Source: Apostichopus japonicus
Taxonomy: Eukaryota; Echinodermata; Holothuroidea; Aspidochirotida; Stichopodidae
Assembly (NCBI RefSeq): GCF_037975245.1
Contig: NC_092577.1
Coordinates: forward strand, 7,159,001-7,223,000
Reading direction: 5' to 3'
DNA: 64,000 nt
Shown here: positions 1 through 64,000 of the stretch, in pieces
Position numbering within the stretch: position 1 is the first letter of the stretch
Layout: every line of letters starts with the position of its first letter
The notes under the pieces: generated by a model
What the model was told of the DNA's origin: nothing
The model's database searches: none
The model's input: only the letters and a program-made list of their open reading frames with translations
Translations under genes and position numbers: made by a program

Positions 1-109
1 GGATATCAGAAAGAAACATAAACAGTACGAAACATGCACTCTTGCACCTTCATCAGACGAATCAGGTGATTTGAAAACATCTTTGTTTACTATTATTCAT
101 CTATTCAAT

Positions 110-270
110 TTCAATTCAATTTCTTTATTCCAGTATAAATTATAAATTTTATAAATAGGACACATAAAAATGATACATAAAAGACGTAAACATGTACAAA
201 AATGAAAGCATGAACAAAAACAAGAAATATGATAGAGGATTAGAAGTTTAAAAGATTAAAAGTATTATAA
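110..270 (-). mobile_element. ~160-bp insertion private to duplicon A
   Basis: Absent from the equivalent place in B (about 16965). On the minus strand it ends in an ATTGAATTGAAATTGAAT-like tail, as in 3' tails of SINEs or short LINE copies. CAAT occurs at both edges as a possible short target duplication. The family is unknown. Confidence 0.45.
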
Positions 271-60800: not shown

Positions 60801-63800
60801 GAAGAAGCTTAACCTCAACTTTATACAGAACGTTTCTCAGAGCCCGGAAGCGGGTCGAGGGTTTAACGCCCAGTGAAAAAGCAGCATTTCTAATATTTCT
60901 TGTTCTCTTATAGAGAGTCCAACCACAACAACTACGTGTACATATATAGAGGAATTAAATTTCTCTGGAAAATATTTGAAGCACTGGCTGGTTCCAAGAG
61001 GGGAAGCGCCTCGGAGACCAAATGTTATAAATAAAGTATATTTCTCTAGAATGTATTCCAAGCAGGCTAGTGGGGATCCGTTGGACTTACGCTGCAGCGT
61101 TTTACAGATATATTGAAGTACTTGTGAAGCACTGAAATCTATTTATGAGAAGTACTCAATTTTCAGCGGATTGAAGTGCAAGGCCCTGGTGATGGGGTGG
61201 GGCCAAGCATCAGGAATCTGCTGCATTTTATTTACCTAATATTATCCAAATTTGTGGAAATACAGACGTAAGGGAGTAACAGACAAACCGATTCTGTTTT
61301 CCTTTCTTCGTTTATGTATTATAACTCTTACTTTTTAAGTGTACGACCATGATAAATTTATCTTCAATTTGTCAACCGACTTGGCATCAATTTAAGACCG
61401 AGCTGTGTGACACCCATACCACTGTTTGTATACCTATGGGGTCGCGTTCTCGAATGATAATAGTTAATTTATATTTTCCTGTTTCCAAGTACAGCATTAG
61501 TGTAAGCAAAGAACTCTTTCAGTATCATATTAGTCTCACTAGACGTTCACTCTTAACTTTACGACACACCATTGCATACGTCCGTGCTCCTCTATAAGTG
61601 TACAAATAAATAAAATATTGTTTTAAATTAACATATAATTCTAATTTCTTACCCTCATATCATTACCCACTTTTATTTATACTAATATTTTGTATTTTTT
61701 ATGTATGGATTTTAGTTTTCAGAGAAACAAAAACTTCTTTTTACGAGGTTGCAAAAAAAGTAAGTTACACTTTGTGGTGTTATTCTGTAATTCAGATTGA
61801 AAGAGTGGCTTTAAGCGGAGGTGTGTATTTGCTTAAATGTGTGTGTTGGTTGGGAAGAGGGGGAGGGTTTTTTAGACTCCGATGGGCACAACATTACTTT
61901 AAAATCTTACACAATAATTGTCGCAGTGTAATTAAGTTGCCCAAAGTGTATACCACTATTTTTCGGAAAAAGATTTAAAGCATCAGTTGATTTGATTGCT
62001 ATTCTCAACTGAATATATTTTAAGGCAGTGATCTCGAAAGAGCGACATGTAAGGAATATGACTTACCTCTTAATTCAACCAAGCTTAGCAATATTAAGTG
62101 TTGTTACATTTCTATTATTCGATTTGTCGTTTTCTATCACAAGACTCTGTTTTCGGTGTCTCCTTCATTTAAAATGGCAATCACGTGTTGCTGATCCATA
62201 ACTCTCTCGTATGTGAATCAACAACACTCTACATGTCAAAAGAAATTTACAAGTTGGCTGGTTGGTAAAGATTTTAAATAAATGTAAGAAATTTTAAATG
62301 TGTCCATTATGACGTCATTGTGACAATACCTTTCACGTTTCTTGACTTCAAGGATGATGGAATGGATCCAATCGGAATAGTGTCTTGCAGATCGTAGTAA
62401 CCAAACCTATGGAGATAAGTAGAGTAATCATCATGTAAGATGTAGAAGACGTAGAGGTATGCCCTCCTAGTCAGGTTTATTGTTTACCAAATCAATGAAG
62501 ATAAACAAAGTAAACAACAAATAACAATGAAATATATCTGATTGATCATTCTGATCCGAATTAATAATAATCACACGTCTTGTGTTTCTACGATCCCACG
62601 AAAACTAAATTAGAATGGATCATAGAAGTGAAGTAGGGAGAACGACGTCATGCGACATACACTGAAGCCACCCATTCTACTGATGGCACTTTGCTTGTAC
62701 GGCAAGAAAGTACCGGCGCGTAATACAAACACTACGCCTTGGACATAACTAAAGGGATACAGTTGACATAAATCACTTGAAATGTTAGAGTTCACTGGTA
62801 AAATATAAATCTAGAAATAATGACTTATAGCTAAATTATTCTTTCTTAATCTCAAAATAGTTTTTATTTAAGATGCTATAAATTACATTTTTCGATTAAA
62901 TGGGGTGTGGGGGGGGGGGATGACAAACCTAATGACGTATACTATAATGGAGGGCGGTAGGGGGTCAAGGACATAACAATATTCTTTACTGGGCTTAACA
63001 ACTGATCCTCCCGGGTGATTTCAGTAAAAAGTTAAACACATAATGTTGAAATTACATGAACAAGGCAGATGTACCAAGATTCTTTATTATTTAACTATTT
63101 TTTCAGTATTACCCTTCAATAATGTTATCACATTGCACGCATTGTTTTTTGTCATTGATCTAAATCAAATTGTACAAACTTATAACATTTTTATGGAGTT
63201 GATAAGAATTTTCTTAACCATTACACAATCGAATCTTCCTATTCAACGATGTTCTCAATGAAGAACTCCATGTGTCCCATATATCAGACTTCCTTCATAC
63301 CAAGGCATTGCTACAACTTCCTGTTTATATTTTATTAAGAACTACGCCAACGTGATCTTCGTTGATTCGCAAAAGAACTGTTTCATCAGGGAGTTGTTAT
63401 GGTTTCATGGAAGCACAAACACTGAGGGGCAGTGGAGCATGTGACTTTGATTTTACGCAAGAAACCACAAACCTCTGACATTATGTTAAACATCTCAAAA
63501 TGAATACTCTGTGCGTTCACCTTACAAATTAAAATATTTGAATGTTTTCAACAAAAAAATCTTTTTACCGGTACTTTTGAAGTGCATGTTTTATCATTCT
63601 TATTATTTTTCATAGCAATGTTTTAGACATGAATGCACTTGTTACAAAAACAAAACAACTAGAGAGCACGTTTAATTACAAAGTTGGGAACTGGTTATTT
63701 CCAATAAAAAACTGAGGCGACTTTCCAGGGTTATCAGGATAGTGACAAAGCATGTACCCATTAACACCCCACCCAACCCCAGCTACCCCTCTTTCACGGC

Positions 63801-64000
63801 TCCGTCGCCCCTGACACGGTAAATGGACGGTATCATCGCGAACATTTACAGTGAGGTCTACACTATAAGTGTCTTTATACTGGTGACTTAACCTACCAGT
63901 AAATACACCAAAAATACATGGATTGTGGTTTGACATGTGGGGATTTTACAACAATCGTTTTACCTCCTTTTCAGCAATCCGATATATTTTGGTAATATCG
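45784..64000 (-). CDS. NLR-C: 3' part of a third NLR gene, truncated by the window edge
   Basis: Exons are 64000-63964 (partial exon 3), 62406-62330 (77 bp), 57559-57501 (59 bp), 49315-49280 (36 bp) and 45840-45784 (57 bp with TAA). Phases 2,1,0,0 equal those of NLR-B exons 3-7, and exons 4 and 5 have exactly the same lengths. The tail reads [19 protein letters not shown]... [53 protein letters not shown]. Introns are 1.6, 4.8, 8.2 and 3.4 kb, far larger than in B, and filled with repeats. The NACHT exon should lie beyond position 64000. The final two exons have diverged strongly from A and B and are less certain. Confidence 0.72.
46412..46586. mobile_element. Foldback/MITE with ~80-bp arms
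   Basis: Left arm AACTGGGTGGTGCTGTAAAT ... GGTAGCATGTGCTATTAGGA ... pairs with the right arm (reverse complement AACTGGATCGTGCTTTAAAT ... GGTAGCATGTGTTATTAGGA). The loop is about 10-15 bp. Lies in NLR-C intron 6. Confidence 0.85.
47577..47918. mobile_element. Miniature element with GGCGTAGGAA ends
   Basis: Starts GGGCGTAGGAACC and ends CTTCCTACGCC (inverted), with G/C-rich ORF-less interior and two ACCAAATTGCATCT copies. A related end occurs at about 3470 and 25700 (CATGGGCGTAGGAACC). Confidence 0.6.
49280..49315 (-). CDS. NLR-C exon 6 (36-bp micro-exon)
   Basis: Very good splice sites: acceptor TTTCTGTTCCCTTCAG and donor GAGAAGAG|GTAAGT. Phase 0 on both sides, encoding [12 protein letters not shown]. 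It occupies the place of the 48-bp exon 6 of A and B but is four codons shorter and diverged. Confidence 0.62.
50097..50330. mobile_element. Probable MITE fragment starting CACTGTAAAAATT
   Basis: CACTGTAAAAATTCTGAGG followed by GGGGAAAGAGTTTTCCCC-type palindromes. No matching end was identified. Family uncertain. Confidence 0.35.
52101..52307. repeat. Array of ACGTACGT palindromes
   Basis: About seven units of roughly 30 bp, each centred on a palindrome such as CCACGTACGTACGTGG or ATTACGTACGTACGTAAT, separated by TAATA-type spacers. Lies in NLR-C intron 5. Confidence 0.85.
53380..53975 (+). mobile_element. Degraded TTAA-targeting DNA transposon, 5' end and first exon
   Basis: Begins TTAA|AGTGGCCATGACACG. 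Downstream, ATGGCAGAATTAGAACC (53706) opens a frame that soon shifts. Further pieces read [13 protein letters not shown] and [15 protein letters not shown] ... [19 protein letters not shown] target, size and acidic first exon suggest a Kolobok-like element. No 3' end was found, so it is truncated or decayed. Confidence 0.5.
54640..54890. repeat. Dispersed repeat, related to 55570-55680
   Basis: GGGAAGTGCCATTTCCAGCA and GGGAGGAATTTTCGGCCAAA correspond to GGAAGTGTTATTTCCGGCGA and GGGAGGTATATTTGCCAAAA at 55616-55660. The 78-codon ORF here is not considered a gene. Confidence 0.6.
55050..55209. repeat. (TA)n microsatellite, about 160 bp
   Basis: Uninterrupted alternating TA. It creates artificial Ile-Tyr ORFs on both strands. 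Confidence 0.98.
55674..55739. repeat. (TA)n microsatellite, about 66 bp
   Basis: Second pure TA tract 460 bp after the first, next to a copy of the same dispersed repeat. Confidence 0.97.
55740..57500. other. Intron 5 of NLR-C, no exon recognised
   Basis: Contains C-rich repeat fragments (CCCCCCCCAATATTTGAAAC near 55810, related to about 54330) and chance ORFs only. Confidence 0.4.
57501..57559 (-). CDS. NLR-C exon 5: RLNLxTGxWQ exon
   Basis: 59 bp, acceptor TTTTATTCATCAG, donor GGCAG|GTAAGA. It encodes [19 protein letters not shown] after a split Val codon. RLNL, G and WQ align without gaps to exon 5 of A and B. Confidence 0.8.
57770..57970. repeat. ~40-bp TGATCAGTTTAC minisatellite (NLR-C intron 4)
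   Basis: About five degenerate units each containing a CATCTCAGT-like part and CTGATCAGTTTACAACC. Confidence 0.82.
59612..59855. repeat. 12-bp GC-rich minisatellite
   Basis: About 20 units of AACGCRRCGYMW in an AT-rich background. The 12-bp period (four codons) keeps two minus-strand frames open (LRYT/LRVA-type and ALYV/AALY-type repeats). Confidence 0.9.
60740..61100. repeat. Dispersed repeat copy
   Basis: GAGGAATTAAATTTCTC ... TCTAGAATGTATTCCAAGCA resembles 9374-9420 (GAGGAATTAAATTTCAC ... GAATGTATTCTAAGCC). Both are near AGAAGCTGCAGAATTTTGAG / GGAAGCTGTAGCAATTTGAG segments. The minus ORF at 60837-61061 is not convincing. Confidence 0.5.
61101..62329. other. Intron 4 of NLR-C, nothing further seen
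   Basis: AT-rich. Plus-strand ORFs at 61349-61597 and 61772-61978 have no recognisable features. Confidence 0.4.
62330..62406 (-). CDS. NLR-C exon 4
   Basis: 77 bp, acceptor TATCTCCATAG, donor GAAAG|GTATTG. It encodes [14 protein letters not shown] followed by [11 protein letters not shown]. Length, phases and several residues (F.Y, SL, N-V) match exon 4 of NLR-A and NLR-B. Confidence 0.75.
62407..63963. other. Intron 3 of NLR-C
   Basis: Bounded by the exon 3 donor (GTAAAA, 63963) and the exon 4 acceptor. Minus ORFs at 62610-62795 and 63676-63936 lack flanking splice support in the right phase. Confidence 0.45.
63964..64000 (-). CDS. NLR-C exon 3, partial at window edge
   Basis: 37 bp ending GGAG|GTAAAA. 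In phase 2 it reads [11 protein letters not shown] plus a split Arg, which aligns without gaps to FIAKCEKLKTV-R of NLR-B exon 3 (shared K, L and final R). It is short, so the call relies on position and phase. Confidence 0.5.

Follow-up and report, generated by a model that had tools for sequence, protein, structure and literature searches.

The analysed window comprises 64,000 nucleotides of Apostichopus japonicus (C17:7159001-7223000, NC_092577.1), and genome-wide searches covered the 671.6-Mb assembly. It sits within a very large array on C17 of what are very probably NLR immune-receptor genes, in a species in which NLR expansion is already known. As the initial annotation proposed, a single NACHT exon is visible as an open reading frame (minus-strand ORF 28061-29635), and the NACHT protein search of the assembly returned one match in the window. 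The three minus-strand 3' exon sets that it had reconstructed at 1.4-3.3, 22.6-25.5 and 45.8-64 kb are present with AG/GT borders, their 77-bp and 59-bp exons have equal length and reading phase in all three sets, and RLNLxxGxWQ, which occurs three times in the window, is common to them (Table 1). A 209-bp exon between the NACHT and 77-bp exons of the middle gene (gene 2) had been overlooked. Sets 1 and 2 both lie in duplicated DNA, the main pieces of which are 82-85% identical, and are therefore not independent of each other.

Table 1. Exons of the three sets, with positions in the window unless prefixed by C17.
Feature	Position	Strand	Remarks
Set 1 terminal exon	1430..1459	-	with stop
Set 1 48-bp exon	2328..2375	-	
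Set 1 59-bp exon	2700..2758	-	identical to gene 2 59-bp exon
Set 1 77-bp exon	3183..3259	-	
Gene 2 terminal exon	22623..22652	-	coding part and stop
Gene 2 48-bp exon	24554..24601	-	
Gene 2 59-bp exon	24927..24985	-	encodes RLNLNSGTWQ
Gene 2 77-bp exon	25418..25494	-	
Partial second 209-bp exon copy	26911..27101	-	inside 348-bp tandem duplication (TRF 100%); no acceptor
Gene 2 209-bp LRR-like exon	27259..27467	-	entry phase 0, ends two bases into codon
Gene 2 NACHT exon	28067..29598	-	1532 nt; acceptor tttctcag, donor gtatag
Gene 3 terminal exon	45784..45840	-	with stop; candidate from splice sites and phase
Gene 3 36-bp exon	49280..49315	-	candidate from splice sites and phase
Gene 3 59-bp exon	57501..57559	-	carries RLNLxxGxWQ motif
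Gene 3 77-bp exon	62330..62406	-	joins in phase to 206-bp exon outside window
Gene 3 206-bp LRR-like (209-type) exon	C17:7227080-7227283		~4 kb outside window
Gene 3 probable NACHT exon	C17:7285573-7287069		~63 kb outside window

Gene 2 encodes a NACHT ATPase with both Walker motifs, one of the features by which NLR membership was judged. Its NACHT ORF matches PF05729 (E 1.9e-16, 60.7 bits against a cut-off of 26.7) and contains GEPGSGKS as Walker A and LVIVLDGIDEY as Walker B. A PDB search with this NACHT returned one sequence, an NLRP fusion (E 8.1e-5). Under predicted splicing the six exons of gene 2 read as a single 650-aa frame, in which the NACHT ATPase and the region following it would occupy a single 1.5-kb exon. 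The search for an N-terminal exon of gene 2 found none, and N-terminal signalling domains (Death, CARD, DED, PYD) were not found in the 10 of 57 upstream ORFs that were scanned with Pfam. Of 204 Death candidates in the assembly 150 were scored; two of the matches listed lie inside an array on C7 and none falls within 6-10 Mb of C17, on which ground a Death-domain N-terminus for the window genes was rejected.

The NACHT search retrieved six further intact copies of the gene 2 NACHT exon on C17 (91-95% identity), and the full NACHT frame is open in 7/7 copies. The peptide of the 209-bp exon is present in all six intact paralogues (94-97% identity), and the 77-bp, 59-bp and 48-bp exons were each found in five of the six paralogue slices (one 48-bp exon over 40 of 48 bases), the exons not matched being ones that would fall past the slice ends. 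The second 209-bp copy in gene 2 was not matched in paralogue loci L010-L015. Its missing acceptor and its identity to the first copy over the shared 191 bp would suit a gene 2 that is a pseudogene, or a 348-bp duplication that is an assembly error. We regard this as improbable, since neither the NACHT frame nor the first 209-bp exon is broken and the six paralogues have both, and since dN/dS among the seven NACHT copies lies below 1 in all 21 pairs (0.27-0.90), though its upper values come close to it.

Exon order and phase are kept not only by the six near-identical paralogues but also by divergent relatives on C16, whose NACHT identity is 37-45%. Exons in the same phase measure 209 bp in 9/9, 77 bp in 5/6 and 59 bp in 4/4 of these, counts that take in only relatives in which the matching peptide was found; L017 lacks a donor at 77 bp. 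In L020, L022, L025 and L026 the 209-, 77- and 59-bp exons follow in order and in phase within 1.5 kb 3' of the NACHT match, and the 77- and 59-bp exons were not matched within the 1.5 kb of 3' sequence of L018, L019, L021 and L023.

Together, the 209-, 77- and 59-bp exons would encode a C-terminal module of about 115 residues, followed by a short tail (48 + 30 bp). Judged from its sequence, the likeliest reading of the module is a short and divergent stack of leucine-rich type, in which three or four LxxLxL-like strands recur at intervals of 28-33 residues, putatively closed by a strongly conserved WYPSxxWYRLNLxSGxWQ cap. The LxxLxL-like columns stand at 3, 36, 66 and 94 of the module alignment (A1), in which four other columns also fit the pattern. 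Comparison of the module with Pfam, its LRR models included, and with the PDB gave no match of weight, and profile search did not show the module to be an LRR. An FNIP repeat matched one of the six module members (E 0.0038). The last 48 module residues matched Kelch_6 at 0.11, and a Kelch repeat was dismissed on account of this weak score and of the implausibility of a lone blade.

Pairwise difference among seven copies of the 59-bp exon is 1.8% (22/1239 sites), against 10.7% (881/8233) and 12.1% (794/6539) in the introns flanking it, and the 77-bp exon differs by 9.5%, close to the introns. Since silent sites are constant too, gene conversion could contribute to the constancy of the 59-bp exon. 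By analogy with the NLR family, the NACHT of the window copies would undergo nucleotide-driven oligomerisation and the C-terminal module would act as a sensor, lid or docking surface in a putative immune role, with a cap that stays nearly constant beside a varying 77-bp exon.

Searches of the whole genome gave 153 exact copies of the tail motif and none of the reversed pattern; as only the best candidates were scored in the searches, genome copy numbers are lower bounds. A 209-type exon lies on the same strand within 60 kb 5' of 91 of the 100 listed tails (one with strands flipped), and within 30 kb 5' of 79 (flipped, 0). On C7 the cyclic order NACHT, 209-type exon, tail accounts for 158 of 195 steps, compared with a mean of 65 and a maximum of 92 in 20000 shuffles that dealt out labels only and kept positions and strands. 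For C14 the matches listed comprise a NACHT, a 209-type exon and a tail, one of each and in this order. The linkage count used the 100 listed of 153 tails, 150 scored 209-type exons (gene 3 query; first look 480) and 70 NACHT matches, drawn from the C7 matches of one search and from the C7, C12, C17 and C22 matches of a second; two broken or split C17 NACHT copies and all other matches were left out. A 209-type exon was found within 80 kb of 49 NACHT exons, three of which are of the window type with a nearer 209-bp exon of their own, and one far C7 NACHT (C7:25468552) was left out of one tail/NACHT association count. The seed of the profile HMM for the 209-bp exon held most of its own matches; independent support for this exon comes from single-sequence tblastn and from the separate genome search with the gene 3 exon.

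An unrelated 77/59-bp family merely adjoining NACHT genes might be suspected from the long subfamily, whose tail lies tens of kilobases from NACHT (e.g. 33 kb, C17:6151441 to C17:6118383). Such a family is nevertheless very hard to credit, given the four C16 relatives that hold all three exons in order and in phase within 1.5 kb past NACHT, and given the agreement of strands among tails, 209-type and NACHT exons (flipped controls 0 and 1). The sequence data thus support a tail that goes with NLR-type (NACHT) genes; the genome contains well over one hundred copies of it.

Set 1 is a 3' end that arose by duplication and lacks a NACHT exon, most likely a remnant. A search with 13 NACHT queries found no match between 3260 and 22600 at E 0.05, and a NACHT remnant belonging to set 1 was rejected. 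All four set 1 exons keep an open frame and splice sites, the 59-bp exon is the same as that of gene 2, and set 1 is nearer to tails L047, L049 and L052 (~92% identity) than to gene 2 (87%), as might be expected if set 1 served the gene 2 NACHT exon as an alternative 3' end in an interchangeable-tail cassette. We consider this unlikely, as set 2, with its own stop, intervenes and as 12 differences separate the exons of sets 1 and 2, 8 of them non-synonymous.

Set 3 represents the 3' end of a gene from a second subfamily, one with long introns, and the probable NACHT exon of this gene lies beyond the window. Its 59-bp exon scores 34 (BLOSUM62) against the middle copy, compared with 9 for the next real candidate among 63 minus-strand 59-bp segments bounded by AG and GT and with 26 for the best of 100 first-order Markov simulations (mean best 2.9). 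The 77-bp exon scores only 14, within the range of chance (simulations reach 18, an unrelated real segment 17), so that the evidence for set 3 comes from its 59-bp exon and from the genome-wide linkage. Relatives of 44271-44474, 1.3 kb 3' of the gene 3 terminal exon, recur 3' of other tails (out of 68 matches, 50 are found 10-39 kb downstream of a same-strand tail among those listed, against 1 with strands flipped). A coding exon at 44474-44271 was rejected, since the 68 matches often carry stops, and because of these stops and the recurrence 3' of tails the segment is treated as 3' non-coding. The element at 34.2-35.1 kb, duplicated at 7.7-8.8 kb, was likewise rejected as a coding exon, because its ORFs are about equally conserved on both strands. 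One of these ORFs has weak Pfam scores (GREB1_2nd 0.0048).

The initial annotation described a cluster of three NLR genes. Its assignment of the tail to NACHT genes holds genome-wide, but the window has only one gene with a NACHT exon: gene 2 has its NACHT exon (22.6-29.6 kb), set 1 lacks one and set 3 supplies only a 3' end. Considering all lines of evidence jointly, we are confident that the window is a slice of the C17 NACHT array comprising gene 2 with a C-terminal module, the set 1 remnant and the end of a long gene in set 3.

A wider reading, whose chances we consider about even, is that these genes represent a holothurian class of at least 150 loci with a hidden C-terminal module, which some subfamilies combine with Ig ectodomains whereas in others the Ig exons have decayed or are gone; published 'NACHT-only' or 'LRR-less' receptors would be truncated models, and the near-invariant cap beside the variable 77-bp exon would be the sign of a sensing or docking surface. 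The module exons of this class would be of fixed length, and its introns would reach tens of kilobases. In view of the module, receptors called 'LRR-less' may be truncated gene models; should transcripts bear out the joins, the numbers given for 'NACHT-only' and 'LRR-less' NLRs in sea cucumbers would have to be revised, and functional studies of truncated constructs would have overlooked a conserved receptor part. The array further contains numerous recent copies in which one small exon is constant and another variable, so that the question of which part of an invertebrate NLR is under diversifying pressure can be tested directly.

Six Ig queries found nothing in 80 kb of flanking sequence (L039-L046) and, in the window, a single match at chance level (0.56), and no Ig exon was among the matches listed on C17 or C22; an Ig N-terminus for gene 2 was rejected on the window and flank results. 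Of the best 46 Ig exons on C16, 39 are followed by a NACHT no more than 15 kb 3', against 0 with strands flipped. The AjNLRC4-type arrangement, with Ig exons 5' of NACHT, is thus found in the C16 relatives and not in gene 2. AjNLRC4 and AjNLR-new of A. japonicus are described with Ig, transmembrane and NACHT regions, and AjNLRC4 as without LRR (PMC8699970, PMC13133943). The C16 relatives have Ig in common with these receptors, their Ig exons lying a few kb upstream of NACHT; in contrast to the description of AjNLRC4, four of them carry the C-terminal module. For Chiridota heheva, 53 NLRs are described, one of them with LRRs (PMC8913654), in keeping with sea cucumber NLRs that are mostly LRR-less to Pfam, and the tail exons are not mentioned in the parts of that account consulted. 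The window genes differ from animal NLRs in their short module, which is without a Pfam LRR match, lies on 209/77/59-bp exons and has an RLNLxxGxWQ cap, and in that the matches listed from the 150 scored Death candidates (of 204) include none close to the C17 array. They resemble animal NLRs and echinoderm expansions in their Pfam NACHT, their match to an NLRP structure, their tandem clusters and their C-terminal repeat-like module.

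All three 3′ exon sets put forward in the initial annotation were recovered, each with AG/GT borders. Gene 2, very probably an immune-receptor (NLR) gene of the NACHT type, reads from its NACHT exon through a 209-bp exon and the small tail exons, whereas set 1 is a tail-only copy and set 3 comprises the 3′ exons of a third, long gene. The 59-bp exon of set 3 scored above the best of 100 simulations, which its 77-bp exon, taken alone, did not. As a prediction from DNA, the exon set is well supported, and this part of the proposed three-gene tandem stands; two of the three genes are incomplete within the window. 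A single NACHT exon was likewise confirmed, with no other found in the window (GC content 33-38% in 4-kb steps).

Coordinates and properties of features (window positions unless a contig is named; the window is C17:7159001-7223000)
Feature	Position	Strand	Observation
Gene 2 exons		minus	1532 (NACHT), 209, 77, 59, 48 and 30 bp; single open frame, 650 aa to stop
Gene 2 NACHT exon	28067-29598	minus	first codon split across the exon border, followed by Arg and Met
Set 1 exons		minus	77, 59, 48 and 30 bp
Set 3 exons		minus	77, 59, 36 and 57 bp
206-bp exon	C17:7227080-7227283		resembles 209-bp exon, tblastn 5.9e-6; 4 kb beyond window
Nearest listed NACHT upstream of set 3	C17:7285573-7287069	minus	
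C14 unit (single listed)	NACHT 2013699; 209-type 1979684; tail 1969839	minus (all)	
54-bp minisatellite	5532-7680		about 40 copies
4.8-kb stretch	8948-13731		99.98% identity to C17:7149519-7154302 (L042); longest ORF listed 120 aa
Part of 4.8-kb stretch	11074-13731		96.6% identity to part of L046
ORF	18984-19847	plus	287 aa; no Pfam match
Duplicated 348-bp unit	26753-27450		100% identity; doubles most of gene 2 209-bp exon
Reverse-transcriptase fragment	31764-32042		PF00078, E 4.2e-6, 27 bits, slightly below cut-off 29.6; probably LINE remnant
Short element	44271-44474		68 genome matches, often with stops

Six intact paralogues of gene 2 (NACHT identity 91-95%) are present on C17, in addition to one with 13 stops and one broken into three pieces. 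None of seven NACHT copies contains a stop, dN/dS ranges from 0.27 to 0.90 over 21 pairs, and estimated selection on NACHT is mild. The peptide of the 209-bp exon is present in all six intact paralogues, and tail exons were seen as far as the paralogue slices extend. In an alignment of eight tails, with every exon covered by seven of them, 22 of 1239 compared sites differ in the 59-bp exon (1.8%), compared with 5.4% in the 48-bp exon, 9.5% in the 77-bp exon and 10.7% and 12.1% in the introns. Diversity is low across the predicted 59-bp exon and higher again beyond it. Although conservation of the 77-bp exon barely exceeds that of the introns, its frame and splice sites are intact.

More distant relatives on contig C16 (NACHT identity 37-45%) likewise have NACHT, 209, 77 and 59 in this order, exon lengths and phases being unchanged. 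At C16 loci picked because a matching peptide had already been observed, the 209-bp exon was found at 9/9 loci where it was sought, the 77-bp exon at 5/6 (one via a scan between neighbouring exons) and the 59-bp exon at 4/4. Within the 1.5 kb examined, neither the 77- nor the 59-bp exon was found at L018, L019, L021 and L023, nor the 59-bp exon at L017.

Beyond the window, a 206-bp exon joins set 3 in phase. No NACHT match occurs in the 40 kb adjoining the window (C17:7223001-7263000), and the last 1.6 kb of 7263001-7285572 holds no significant 209-type match; as this was the only part of that interval read, it is from order and spacing that we infer that set 3 belongs with the next listed NACHT exon.

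Searching the assembly (671,581,487 bases, 35 contigs) with the 206-bp exon gave at least 150 scored matches, nearly all in open frames of 69-70 aa, so short that a simple listing of ORFs would pass over them. Exact matches to the tail pattern R(L/F)N(L/F)xxGxWQ followed by a donor number 153, against none for the reversed pattern. A 209-type exon lies upstream on the same strand within 30 kb of 79 of 100 listed tails (strands flipped, 0) and within 60 kb of 91 (flipped, 1); six have none within 200 kb. For 49 of 70 NACHT exons, a 209-type exon follows downstream at no more than 80 kb (flipped, 1). Among 197 features on contig C7, 158 of 195 steps follow the order NACHT, 209-type, tail (20000 label shuffles: mean 65, maximum 92). 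The short element at 44 kb in the window is probably 3′ non-coding sequence of tail-bearing genes, since for 50 of its 68 matches a listed tail of the same strand stands 10-39 kb to the 5′ side (flipped, 1).

The DNA that holds sets 1 and 2 is duplicated: segments of 1-5787 match segments of 16859-26797 (main segments 82-85% identical), and 7744-8798 matches 34177-35140 (75-83%). The part of copy 2 with the NACHT and 209-bp exons has no matched counterpart in copy 1, which carries the minisatellite instead. Since the set 1 tail is about 92% identical to L047, L049 and L052 but 87% to gene 2, set 1 may not derive directly from gene 2. Self-comparison of the window gave no DNA matches between set 3 and sets 1 or 2. 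The 4.8-kb stretch is a putative very recent copy, mobile or segmental. No second copy of the 348-bp unit or the 209-bp exon was matched in the six paralogues.

Joined, the 209-, 77- and 59-bp exons encode a module of 114-115 residues in each of six relatives, 12 columns of the alignment being invariant. A short leucine-rich stack is suggested by LxxLxL-like strands at columns 3, 36, 66 and 94 (spacing 33, 30 and 28); because four further columns match the pattern as well and Pfam and PDB profiles do not recognise the module, we label it LRR-like.

No Ig or Death exon was found for the window genes. Ig-like exons lie 5′ of NACHT in the C16 relatives L025 and L022 (L054 and L055), one of three pieces in L054 exceeding the Pfam cut-off (C2-set_2, 24.2 bits versus 21). 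Among the first 46 C16 matches listed for one of these Ig-like exons, 39 have NACHT 1.9-14.4 kb downstream (flipped control, 0), with a median distance on C16 of 2.8 kb, start to start. Among the 144 Ig matches listed, 16 of 17 on C7 contain stops, as if the Ig part had decayed there before array expansion, and none lies on C17 or C22. By eye, several C7 Ig matches lie about 4.5-7.4 kb 5′ of C7 NACHT exons, and many Death-domain matches on C12 share stretches with NACHT exons of that contig, which looks like another type of NLR within this genome.

NLR expansion in A. japonicus has been reported previously, as stated in the available part of PMC13228809, and the portion consulted of PMC8913654 gives 53 NLRs for C. 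heheva, with LRRs in only one. A limited look at titles and abstract openings in the open-licence literature found no published account of this tail. In the accessible parts of PMC8699970 and PMC13133943, AjNLRC4 is described as lacking LRRs and Ig-TM-NACHT receptors are published for A. japonicus, which the C16 Ig exons 5′ of NACHT fit.
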